Shown: one piece after another, positions 32,896 through 36,118 of the stretch | Position numbering within the stretch: position 1 is the first letter of the stretch | Layout: each line of letters begins with the position of its first letter | Program-made: the position numbers and the translations under genes | IMG/VR virus record: IMGVR_UViG_3300043437_000170 | Span: 1 to 36,118 of that record | DNA length: 36,118 nucleotides | Source of the DNA: a virus | Strand: one strand, 5' to 3' | Notes under the pieces: model-generated | The model's input: only the letters and a program-made list of their open reading frames with translations | Databases searched by the model: none | What the model was told of the DNA's origin: nothing

Positions 32896-33375
32896 ATGGC
32901 AGGCGTTAAAGTAACCGATTTACCAGTATTAGGAGCAGCAGCTTCAGACGATGTATTGTACATTGTTGATACGAGCAGTAATACAAGCAGCCAGATTGAG
33001 GTGTCAAGCCTTTTGCCTGTTGTACCTGTTTTAGATAGCGGAACATGGACACCGACTTTAAGTGATTTTAATGGATGTGTTGTAGATGCCACTTTGCTTT
33101 CTGCTTACTATTCAAGAATTGGCAATATTGTAACTTGCACAATTTATGGAAGTATTGATTTAGATTTTAGTTTATCAAGTGGTACTGGTTACCTTGATTA
33201 TACACCACCAATAGCAACAACTAGTTTTGACCCAATTGGATTAGGTCAATTAAAAGAAAATTCAACAAATTGCAATATAGCATCTGCTGCTTCAAAGATG
33301 TATTTTTATTCAACATCAAGTGCTAATGTAGGAGTTACAGAATTTACCTTTTCATTCCAATACGAAATCAACTAA
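32896..33375 (+). CDS. Second fibre / receptor-binding candidate
   Basis: A 159-residue protein. Residues 1-45 (MAGVKVTDLPVLGAAASDDV then LYIVDTSSNTSSQIEV) are the attachment-type start seen in phage fibres: VTDLP...A.SDD.LYIVDTS. The rest (WTPTLSDFNGC, YYSRIGNIVTCTIYGSIDLD, EFTFSFQYEIN) is beta-rich, probably a trimeric C-terminal binding domain. AT-rich DNA suggests exchange. It shares TAATG with the lysozyme start, joining receptor-binding and lysis regions. Confidence 0.68.
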   Translation: MAGVKVTDLPVLGAAASDDVLYIVDTSSNTSSQIEVSSLLPVVPVLDSGTWTPTLSDFNGCVVDATLLSAYYSRIGNIVTCTIYGSIDLDFSLSSGTGYLDYTPPIATTSFDPIGLGQLKENSTNCNIASAASKMYFYSTSSANVGVTEFTFSFQYEIN

Positions 33376-33833
33376 TGCGCAGCACCTCGATTCTCGGACT
33401 TAACTTAATTAAGAAGTACGAGGGCTTGAGGCTCACGAGTTATCTTTGCCCTGCTTCCGTGGCTACGATAGGCTACGGCTCGACACGATACCCAAATGGC
33501 AAGAAGGTAATACTCGGCGAAAAGCTGACAAGCGAAAAGGAAGCAACGCAATTGCTACTTGCAACGCTTGAGCCATTTGAGGCGGCGGTAAATAAGCACC
33601 TACCAAATATCAACCAATGTCAGTTCGATGCGTTGGTGTGCTTTGCTTATAATGTCGGCACAGGCGCACTCATTAAATCCACGTTGCTAAGAAAGGCAAA
33701 AGCCAACAACGCCGACCCAAGCATATTGGACGAGTTCCTGAGATGGAACAGGGCAGGCGGCAAGGTGCTTGCAGGGCTAACCAATCGCAGACGCGAAGAG
33801 GCGAATCTCTATTTCTCACTTTGTAAAGTTTAG
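33375..33833 (+). CDS. Endolysin: GH24 T4-type lysozyme
   Basis: A 152-residue muramidase. The catalytic block contains E16 (KKYEGLRL), then YLCPASVATIGYGS with T31. At the position of T4 Asp20 there is C25, giving a Glu-Cys-Thr triad, a variant known from some GH24 endolysins and active in the engineered T4 D20C enzyme. Later conserved blocks are QFDALVCFAYNVG, STLLRKAKANN, FLRWNRAGGKVLAGLTNRR. No signal peptide is seen, so release would need a holin. It cleaves the glycan chain of peptidoglycan. Confidence 0.92.
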   Translation: MRSTSILGLNLIKKYEGLRLTSYLCPASVATIGYGSTRYPNGKKVILGEKLTSEKEATQLLLATLEPFEAAVNKHLPNINQCQFDALVCFAYNVGTGALIKSTLLRKAKANNADPSILDEFLRWNRAGGKVLAGLTNRRREEANLYFSLCKV

Positions 33834-33879: not shown

Positions 33880-34086
33880 ATGCGAAAACGTGCTACCAAA
33901 CCAAGGCGAATCATAGACATAATTGTCAAGCATTGGCGTAGCACTATCGGAAGCCTTATGATTTTAGTTTCAATATTTTTGCTAATCTTTAAAGTCATTT
34001 CAACCGAAACCCTCGCGGCAATTGTAGCAACGCTAATCGCCGCTGGTTATATTCCAAAAGCCAAAGACGATGCAGCAGATTCGTAG
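33880..34086 (+). CDS. Holin-like membrane protein
   Basis: A 68-residue protein with a basic start (MRKRATKPRRI), a strong transmembrane segment at about 20-40 (TIGSLMILVSIFLLIFKVIS) and a second at about 43-57 (ETLAAIVATLIAAGY), then a charged tail KAKDDAADS. Size, two segments and position right after the lysozyme fit a class II holin. It lies 46 nt after the lysozyme and overlaps the next gene by 17 nt. Confidence 0.65.
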   Translation: MRKRATKPRRIIDIIVKHWRSTIGSLMILVSIFLLIFKVISTETLAAIVATLIAAGYIPKAKDDAADS

Positions 34087-34471
34087 AGATACCGTCAAGA
34101 TTGCACGCCATAACAAGGTGAATGTAGACACCATGAGCTGGGAGATTGCAAATGCCGACACGAGCTTTCAGCAAGCTAACCGCGAAAGCTTCGAGTTCGT
34201 CATGGCACAGCCAAAGCCAGTGCGTGAACTTACCGCCTTTGATACCATTCAGCCATGCGATGTATCTTTATACCCAGCACCAACGTACTACACCCTCAAA
34301 CCTCAGCCTGTAAGAAACACGCAAGATATTGAAGAGCCTATGAATTACGATATACTCCTAAATGGTGTTGTGTTTAGCTTTGCCCTGTGGATGAGTGCGA
34401 AATACTTGATTGGATGTGGTGCTGCCTGGATCAATTTATTTAACGATCTGAGAAGCGAGCTAAGGGCATAA
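34070..34471 (+). CDS. Hypothetical protein with C-terminal membrane segment
   Basis: A 133-residue protein (ATG 34070, alternative ATG 34133, MSWEIANADT). The first 90 residues are soluble, Pro-rich in part (VSLYPAPTYYTLKPQPV). Residues about 97-118 (LLNGVVFSFALWMSAKYLIG) form one membrane segment near the end. A tail-anchored protein inside the lysis cassette might regulate the holin (antiholin) or help lysis, but this is inferred from location only. Confidence 0.6.
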   Translation: MQQIRRDTVKIARHNKVNVDTMSWEIANADTSFQQANRESFEFVMAQPKPVRELTAFDTIQPCDVSLYPAPTYYTLKPQPVRNTQDIEEPMNYDILLNGVVFSFALWMSAKYLIGCGAAWINLFNDLRSELRA

Positions 34472-34475
34472 GGCT

Positions 34476-34483
34476 TATCTTTG
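34476..34483 (+). promoter_or_regulatory. Promoter -7 box (TATCTTTG) for a leaderless transcript
   Basis: TATCTTTG ends 4 nt before ATG 34488 of the PAS-HisKA gene, in a 16-bp gap. No -33 TTTG was found at the usual distance. The arrangement matches the other start-proximal boxes here (10052, 25343). Confidence 0.5.
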
Positions 34484-34487
34484 TCTT

Positions 34488-35054
34488 ATGGCATCACTGC
34501 ACATCCTCGAGGCGAGCATCGACCTCTTCTATGTGATTACCGATAAGGACGGGAATATTGTGACCTCCAATGATTTATTCAAAGAATACAGCAGCCACAT
34601 AAAACCCGGCAATATTCTGGACATTGCAGCCAATGACAGTGATCGTGATGAGATGCTTACTGCGATCAGGAAGTCGCAAAAGAAAGCACCGGATCCGATT
34701 AGGGTTTATTCAAGGACACGCCAGAAGATGTCATCTGAGCGTTACAATATGTGGAATGTTTACTGCATTATGAACAGCATTCACATGATTGGTATCCAGT
34801 TGGTCGATGTGACATCTATCAGCTCGCATGAGCATGAGCGGCAGAAAATGCTTTTGGAAGAGTTTCGTTTCATGTTGAGCCACGAGCTTCGCCAGCCATT
34901 GACTTCAATTGGCGGCTTGGTGCAGATGATAATGGAGCACAAAGAAATAACAGAGGAAGAGCGAAAGGGCGTAATGGAGATGATAGCAGACAGCGTGCAG
35001 AAGCTTGATGAAGTGATCAGGCTACTTGTAAAGAAAGCAACAAGACAGCTATGA
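34488..35054 (+). CDS. PAS-HisKA protein lacking an ATPase domain
   Basis: A 188-residue protein in the lysis cassette. Residues about 7-110 have the PAS fold pattern (IDLFYVITDKDGNIVTSND, then MIGIQLVDVTSI closing the domain). Residues about 120-185 are a HisKA dimerisation helix pair with the phosphoacceptor box SHELRQPLTSIGGL (H132). No N- or G-box ATP-binding domain follows, so it cannot phosphorylate itself. It could act as a decoy phosphoacceptor or dimerisation partner of a host sensor kinase. It has its own start-proximal promoter. Its stop overlaps the next gene (ATGA). Domain calls come from motifs; role is inference. Confidence 0.8.
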   Translation: MASLHILEASIDLFYVITDKDGNIVTSNDLFKEYSSHIKPGNILDIAANDSDRDEMLTAIRKSQKKAPDPIRVYSRTRQKMSSERYNMWNVYCIMNSIHMIGIQLVDVTSISSHEHERQKMLLEEFRFMLSHELRQPLTSIGGLVQMIMEHKEITEEERKGVMEMIADSVQKLDEVIRLLVKKATRQL

Positions 35055-35254
35055 ATGAAGCACACACCTACTTACCAAGCACTGATGAAGAATGTGACGA
35101 GCGGCTGGTGAAGGTGCTTGCGATTTACATCTTAGAAAGGGCCATGCCGCTGAAAGTTGCGAGCCAGATACTGCTTTCAAACTTGCGAAACAAAGACCTT
35201 TACATGGTGCGTTTTAACGAAGTAATGCAATTTGTAAGCAATGGAACAACCTAA
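35051..35254 (+). CDS. Small hypothetical protein
   Basis: A 67-residue protein, MNEAHTYLPSTDEECDERLV, then helices (AIYILERAMPLKVASQILLS, RFNEVMQFVSNG). It overlaps the PAS-HisKA gene by 4 nt and the spanin-like gene by 14 nt, so it is coupled to both and may act with the former. I do not recognise it. Confidence 0.65.
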   Translation: MNEAHTYLPSTDEECDERLVKVLAIYILERAMPLKVASQILLSNLRNKDLYMVRFNEVMQFVSNGTT

Positions 35255-35900
35255 CTTAAGCAGGCTTTATTTGGTGACAATTACGGTTGTCCTTGCATTG
35301 ATGCTGATCAGGACTTGCGGAAGCTTGGCCTCAACCGAGCTTGAACTGGAGAGGCTTGATAATGCCAATGCCGAGTTTACCATCCGCATTGCTAATGACT
35401 CGGCCAAGATTTACAGCCAGTCGCAGACCATTGTAAGCAGCGAGCGCAAGTATGCAGAGCTTGAGAAGATCAACGCAGCACTTGGCATCAAAGCAAGCCA
35501 AGCCGTGCAATACAGGACCAAGACAGTGATTCAAACCGAGTTCGAACTTGGTGACACGGTGTACATCGATAGCTTTCCGCACTTGCGCCTGCCAAGATCA
35601 TTCGGCCGTGAAGGTAAATGGCTATCCATAGGAGGCACGATAAACCGCGTAGGAAGGCTTCAGATTGACTCATTGATAATTCCGGTATCTTATACCGTTG
35701 CCATCGGAGATACGCTGCGTAAAGGCTCTATTTTGCGAAAGCGTGACAAGGTGGTCCGCATTGCAGTTGACAATCCTTATGTTAGCGTGACCGGCATCAG
35801 CAATGTTGTAATTCGCCAGGATAAAAAGTGGTGGCAAACCGATGCGGCCAAGATTGGACTCGGGGCGTTTATTGGTTTCGGGCTGACACGCATAAAATAA
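35241..35900 (+). CDS. Membrane-anchored coiled-coil (spanin-like) protein, complete copy
   Basis: A 219-residue protein with an N-terminal membrane anchor (about residues 8-24, LYLVTITVVLALMLIR, followed by TCGSLAS), a coiled coil at about 28-80 (LELERLDNANAEFTIRIAND), a beta-rich part and a hydrophobic Gly-rich end (GLGAFIGFGL). Placement at the end of the lysis genes and an inner-membrane anchor plus periplasmic coiled coil recall Rz-type spanins or Bacteroidota DUF6549-like proteins. No overlapping outer-membrane lipoprotein (Rz1) gene was found. The last 164 residues are identical to the partial gene at 1-495. Confidence 0.7.
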   Translation: MEQPNLSRLYLVTITVVLALMLIRTCGSLASTELELERLDNANAEFTIRIANDSAKIYSQSQTIVSSERKYAELEKINAALGIKASQAVQYRTKTVIQTEFELGDTVYIDSFPHLRLPRSFGREGKWLSIGGTINRVGRLQIDSLIIPVSYTVAIGDTLRKGSILRKRDKVVRIAVDNPYVSVTGISNVVIRQDKKWWQTDAAKIGLGAFIGFGLTRIK

Positions 35901-35966
35901 TTGGCTTGATTTTCAGGCACTTGCGTTTTTTTGCGCTGGTGGTTTATTGTTTTGTTTGTTTTTCGC

Positions 35967-35996
35967 TTGCGAATTCAAAAAAGGGGTGTACATTTG
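35967..35996 (+). promoter_or_regulatory. Second copy of the early promoter
   Basis: TTG at 35967-35969 and TACATTTG at 35989-35996 repeat the element at 562-591 unchanged. In a circular genome these are one and the same site. Confidence 0.65.
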
Positions 35997-36025
35997 CCTC
36001 AACAAAACAACGAAACAAAAACGCC

Positions 36026-36118
36026 ATGACAACTCAAGTAACAATCGAAACCGAATGGAAACGCAGAATGGATTTAGTAGAAAGCCCTGCATTTGTTAAA
36101 CTTTGCGCAAAATACGCT
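36026..36118 (+). CDS. Start of the small early gene, 3' truncated by the window
   Basis: Thirty-one codons of the protein described at 621-815 (MTTQVTIETEWKRRMD). Every base matches the left copy across 621-713, so this part is identical between the two ends even though the flanking DNA differs at three non-coding positions. The gene runs off the window edge. Confidence 0.75.
   Translation, partial: MTTQVTIETEWKRRMDLVESPAFVKLCAKYA

Follow-up and report, generated by a model that had tools for sequence, protein, structure and literature searches.

What can a phage do with the front half of a sensor kinase? The question is raised by a small gene at one end of the window, as we call the whole stretch of 36,118 nucleotides analysed here (positions 1 to 36,118 of the IMG/VR virus record IMGVR_UViG_3300043437_000170). 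The protein, named PASHK here, joins a PAS sensor to the histidine-bearing hairpin of a kinase and stops there. Its domains make it a fragment of a PAS-HisKA kinase; without the ATP domain it does not count as a histidine kinase. The original prediction put its gene in the lysis cassette, between holin-like and spanin-like genes, and suggested that the protein could intercept phosphate or pair with a host hybrid kinase, and connect host state to lysis timing. The genes concerned are the following.

33375..33833, plus strand: endolysin, a phage lysozyme (Pfam Phage_lysozyme 1.1e-38; PHROG endolysin 3e-50)
33880..34086, plus strand: two-TM holin-like protein (two hydrophobic segments; weak PHROG holin match, 0.06)
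34070..34471, plus strand: 133-aa protein with a C-terminal hydrophobic stretch (no Pfam or PHROG family match; position conserved)
34488..35054, plus strand: PASHK, CA-less PAS-HisKA protein of 188 aa (ATG start, intact ORF)
35051..35254, plus strand: 67-aa small partner of three helices (overlaps the PASHK stop codon by ATGA)
35241..35900, plus strand: 219-aa protein with an N-terminal hydrophobic segment, spanin-like at best (one TM peak; no match naming spanin)

Within this group the endolysin assignment is certain; the holin and spanin labels are plausible only. A search for the same neighbourhood in related phages, as the original prediction had proposed, found the order tail protein, endolysin, two-TM holin-like protein, 133-aa protein, PASHK, 67-aa protein, 219-aa protein kept almost everywhere. 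The lysis neighbourhood therefore stands, with a correction: the immediate upstream neighbour of PASHK is the 133-aa gene, and the holin-like gene lies one further upstream. The gene downstream is an obligate partner. The start of the 67-aa gene overlaps the PASHK stop as ATGA in 218 of 223 loci, an arrangement of translational coupling, and neither protein was seen without the other in 93 further viral loci. The model of the 67-aa protein is a set of three helices (pLDDT 87), with no PDB match to its fold at E 0.001.

PASHK itself divides into parts as follows.

34512..34814, plus strand: PAS domain, residues about 9-109, with the D107-V108-T109 motif at its end (model and Z 13.2 to ARNT PAS-B; DVT invariant)
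34824..35051, plus strand: signalling helix and DHp (HisKA) hairpin, residues 113-188 (Pfam HisKA; model helices 113-150 and 156-187)
34881..34883, plus strand: codon of the predicted phosphoacceptor H132, in the H-box SHELRQPL (143 of 143 distinct homologues)

Both halves of the predicted sensor-HisKA architecture were borne out. The Pfam family HisKA (PF00512) matches residues 129-178 with E 2e-8 and 34.6 bits, against a curated cut-off of 26.9; H132 is the histidine of its H-box. PAS gave no Pfam match by sequence; residues 8-182, however, align along the PAS and HisKA domains of the PAS kinase 3a0r (phmmer, 8e-7). An AlphaFold2 model built with 24 relatives (mean pLDDT 79, pTM 0.55) has a PAS fold at residues about 9-107, followed by a long two-helix hairpin. 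In this predicted model the PAS fold matches ARNT PAS-B with Z 13.2 and rmsd 2.2 over 100 residues (VIA-align), and the best whole-chain matches are LOV-histidine kinases (Foldseek, 4e-7).

A sensor histidine kinase carries HisKA with its phosphoacceptor histidine, present here, and HATPase_c in the same protein, absent here: as had been claimed, there is no ATP-binding domain, for the chain gives out with DHp helix 2, at residue 188, just where a CA domain would be expected. HATPase_c was found neither in the window phage nor in five relatives at E up to 1, and was found in all 14 control genomes; the receiver domain, likewise found in all 14 controls, was not found in the window. The features of a lysis protein are also missing: PASHK is a soluble protein with no hydrophobic segment above threshold, and has no cell-wall hydrolase match in Pfam or PHROG.

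This short form is no oddity of one record. Two queries of IMG/VR in viral scans gave at least 387 and at least 305 related stretches (overlapping sets); 143 distinct PASHK proteins, down to 49% identity, make up the conservation set. The most distant lineage, at 49-53% identity, consists of two viral contigs (L141 and L142) and one Bacteroidota MAG (L140). The protein is 188 aa long in 139 of the 143; H132, E133, P137 and 41 other positions are invariant in all of them, as are the DVT motif and the distance of 25 from D107 to H132. Relatives lacking the histidine, which would have spoken against the HisKA claim, were looked for, and the claim holds. The most conserved patch is residues 126-145; by segment, the H-box is least variable (entropy 0.29 bits), followed by PAS (1.02) and the helix end and loop (2.0). 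Over ten pairs of relatives the dN/dS of PASHK, 0.062, is the lowest of six cassette genes, the others being endolysin (0.107), the holin-like gene (0.117) and the remaining three (0.157, 0.174 and 0.187).

When contigs were selected by capsid protein instead, PASHK was present in all 57 that extend far enough; the ten with lysis genes and no PASHK break off at the endolysin or holin-like gene or shortly beyond it. On this evidence PASHK belongs to the core genes of a phage group that is widespread and uncultivated. Three alternatives were rejected: a chance ORF or pseudogene, given the hundreds of relatives of constant length and the dN/dS of 0.06; a longer kinase hidden by annotation error, given the conservation of the PASHK stop inside the ATGA overlap; and a prophage or host gene, given the single match in 198 Bacteroidota genomes and the absence of an integrase from six phage records. 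Those 198 genomes gave no close cellular homologue at E 1e-12. Isolate phages yielded no PASHK match at 1e-3, and their HisKA matches, at E up to 10, were chance-level only. In one contig (L246:2401-2760 and L316:3151-3510) the frame is broken after about 100 residues, by assembly error or in a single disrupted copy.

The reading favoured here, tentatively and at somewhat less than even confidence, is that PASHK is a CA-less phosphoacceptor that enters host two-component signalling, gated by its PAS domain and by the 67-aa partner. The protein would dimerise through DHp in the host cytosol; H132 would be phosphorylated in trans by the catalytic domain of a host kinase, or by a host receiver domain working in reverse; this step would be under the control of PAS and partner; and during infection the phage would thereby divert or rewire a host two-component pathway. 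With no ATP domain of the phage's own, the donor would have to be a host protein; 40 HATPase_c places were counted in the Bacteroidota MAG with a PASHK relative. The phages of this group thus probably tie into host signalling around the time of cell takeover or bursting.

The residues around the histidine point the same way. In HisKA kinases, autophosphorylation or kinase activity alone depends on the Glu or other acidic residue at H+1, and the phosphatase alone on the Asn or Thr at H+4; in CrdS, N375Q abolishes the phosphatase (PMC3510030). These rules derive from mutagenesis of full-length kinases of other bacteria; applied to PASHK, in which E133 is always kept and H+4 is Q in 139 homologues, S in 3, H in 1 and Asn or Thr in none, they predict a phosphoacceptor and not a phosphatase. 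The phosphate-interception half of the original prediction gains from this, and from the invariance of H132; pairing with a hybrid kinase in particular gains nothing. Against the phosphoacceptor reading count the absence of a close cellular homologue from the 198 genomes and the fact that H132 would be invariant too if the H-box served only structure or binding.

That last point opens the way to the main rival, in which PASHK is a decoy without chemistry. Here it would bind and block host kinases, by forming DHp heterodimers, or response regulators, acting as a dominant negative with the histidine as part of the binding surface. DHp proteins without CA are able to mimic kinases or form dimers with them, PIT4 is an example of a phage protein that binds host kinase domains, and a binding surface could be what is conserved in residues 126-145. 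The difficulty lies in the particular residues retained: H132 and E133 are kept in all 143 proteins, while the histidine is lost from pseudo-kinases, DivL among them, and the position of E133 is one that matters for the chemistry of HisKA phosphorylation. A decoy is possible, and distinctly less probable than the phosphoacceptor.

When the protein might act is a separate matter, which turns on the host, the promoter and the map. The host is probably one of the Bacteroidota, to judge from sequence clues that agree with one another: the type of promoter box, primase domains that are BT4734-like and DUF3874, a nearest terminase in Flavobacterium phage 11b, and the L140 relative in a Bacteroidota MAG. 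The box is the following.

34476..34483, plus strand: TATCTTTG, which fits the TAnnTTTG of a Bacteroidota sigma-A -7 box and lies at -12 to -5 from the ATG

In Bacteroidota the -7 box TAnnTTTG occupies -12 to -5 of the transcription start (PMC9723704; PMC6847099), and leaderless transcripts make up 5.5% of mRNAs in F. psychrophilum (PMC9723704). As the box before PASHK lies at -12 to -5 from the ATG, the mRNA is predicted to be leaderless, starting at the ATG itself. The start-proximal promoter of the original prediction holds in the sense of a conserved box. Across 40 unique upstream sequences the box keeps seven of its eight positions unchanged, while adjoining columns vary; over 35 unique contexts identity is 98.6% in the box versus 37% in the flanks. 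In 102 unique contexts the box stands at -12 in 49, at -13 in 2 and at -15 in 1, and is absent in 50, all of the MSSLFIL lineage; where it stands at -12 the free nn is TC, AA, TT, AC or CC, and the start codon ATG or GTG. Among the cassette genes PASHK alone has a box at -12; a conserved -33 element did not show up with it.

The box might instead have been coding sequence (Y-L-C in frame) of a PASHK extended upstream. This was rejected: in the window no start codon stands between PASHK and a stop nine codons upstream; any upstream start is missing from 20 of 35 unique contexts; the box of L047 contains TAA; and the variation at the two nn positions is what the promoter consensus permits.

Two lineages lack the box at the PASHK start, MSSLFIL and L140-L142. 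In the first, the PASHK gene overlaps its upstream neighbour where the box is missing. At L144-type loci of this lineage a fixed TATCTTTG lies inside the upstream gene, 318 bases before PASHK, in 46 unique sequences; its wobble positions are invariant, but the surrounding stretch is generally conserved, and it might be a relocated promoter. In the second, TAAATTGC occurs about two dozen bases before the PASHK start (just upstream of L140:1484, L141:6001 and L142:6001; three sequences only) and resembles TAnnTTGY, a box that belongs to an alternative sigma motif in F. psychrophilum.

The map adds a further element. The window ends, 1-713 and 35406-36118, overlap over 713 bases at 97.6% identity (17 mismatches), so that the genome map is probably circular, of about 35.4 kb, with PASHK near the join of late and early regions. 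The imperfect identity points to two sequence variants joined in one record. Given its own predicted leaderless promoter and a place beside the early region in the circular map, PASHK may act early and not at lysis.

This bears on another explanation, in which PASHK and the 67-aa protein form a lysis-timing switch that senses the state of the cell through PAS and holds or releases lysis, by way of the holin-like or neighbouring membrane proteins or of host envelope signalling. PASHK does keep a fixed place after the endolysin, holin-like and TM genes in all lineages. That position, however, is the one thing that speaks for a link between host state and lysis timing; the predicted promoter of most lineages and the nearness to early genes fit early action equally. 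Moreover, L140-L142 have a spanin-like lipoprotein upstream of PASHK and no relative of the 219-aa protein downstream; the lysis genes end before PASHK, which is thus at the end of the lysis region there and not inside it. Location inside a lysis cassette accordingly applies to most lineages and, in view of the weak holin and spanin labels, with some reserve; a timing switch is rather improbable. The lipoprotein-like genes (L141:5411-5929, L142:5417-5929 and L140:886-1344) encode a lipoprotein-like signal and a C-terminal TM, and resemble a unimolecular spanin. A broader version of the phosphoacceptor reading would take the stripped-down kinase, the leaderless mRNA and the 67-aa partner together as a phosphate-accepting input from host two-component signalling to the phage programme, lysis decision included; this too is unlikely, to about the same degree as the switch.

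Two further explanations fare worse. DHp fragments without CA can act as phosphatases, as in EnvZ, and on that precedent the hairpin alone might strip phosphate from a host regulator; this is very unlikely, as the required Asn or Thr at H+4 is absent in 143 of 143 homologues and is mostly Gln, the change that abolished the CrdS phosphatase. Split kinases are known in Mycobacterium, but an ATP domain encoded elsewhere in the phage in an unrecognised form is scarcely credible here, given the empty HATPase_c search set against its 14 positive controls and the small size of the three-helix 67-aa protein.

The interest of the locus is that no described counterpart came up for a gene more constrained than its holin-like and endolysin neighbours. 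Should the phosphoacceptor role be true, phages tap host two-component signalling by supplying the kinase half, a form of host-virus signalling that none of the papers found describes. A host-type promoter predicted to give a leaderless mRNA is unusual in front of a late-region gene, and directly testable. Newly recognised are the ATGA coupling to an always-present 67-aa protein and the -7 box 12-15 bases before the start in most lineages.

Comparison with known systems sharpens the distinction. Viral proteins annotated as histidine kinases (A0A6J5L941 of uncultured Caudovirales, and others from giant viruses) match the PAS/DHp fold of PASHK in BFVD; most are larger, and no record of a conserved CA-less form beside lysis genes came up. 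Nor did the open-licence literature searched yield phage lysis kinases or CA-less phage kinases, and the original remark that no phage lysis gene of this kind had been described still applies, for isolate phages as well. PIT4, from Pseudomonas phage LSL4, is like PASHK phage-encoded; it is reported as an early gene that inhibits motility through host histidine kinases, acting on their domains, and not as a phosphoacceptor. PAS-HisKA sensor kinases (3a0r; the LOV-histidine kinases 4gcz and 8a52) share with PASHK the PAS domain, the DVT motif, the signalling helix and the H-box hairpin; PASHK differs in lacking CA/HATPase_c, in being phage-encoded, and in having neither Asn nor Thr at H+4. In Spo0B and ChpT a DHp-type histidine serves phosphotransfer; these proteins, whose type is a dimer with a DHp four-helix bundle, retain a degenerate CA domain, whereas PASHK has no residual CA segment in sequence or model and carries a PAS domain. 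A DHp-type histidine is likewise used for phosphotransfer in PhyT (PMC5898713), and it is such phosphotransferases that PASHK may resemble in its working principle.
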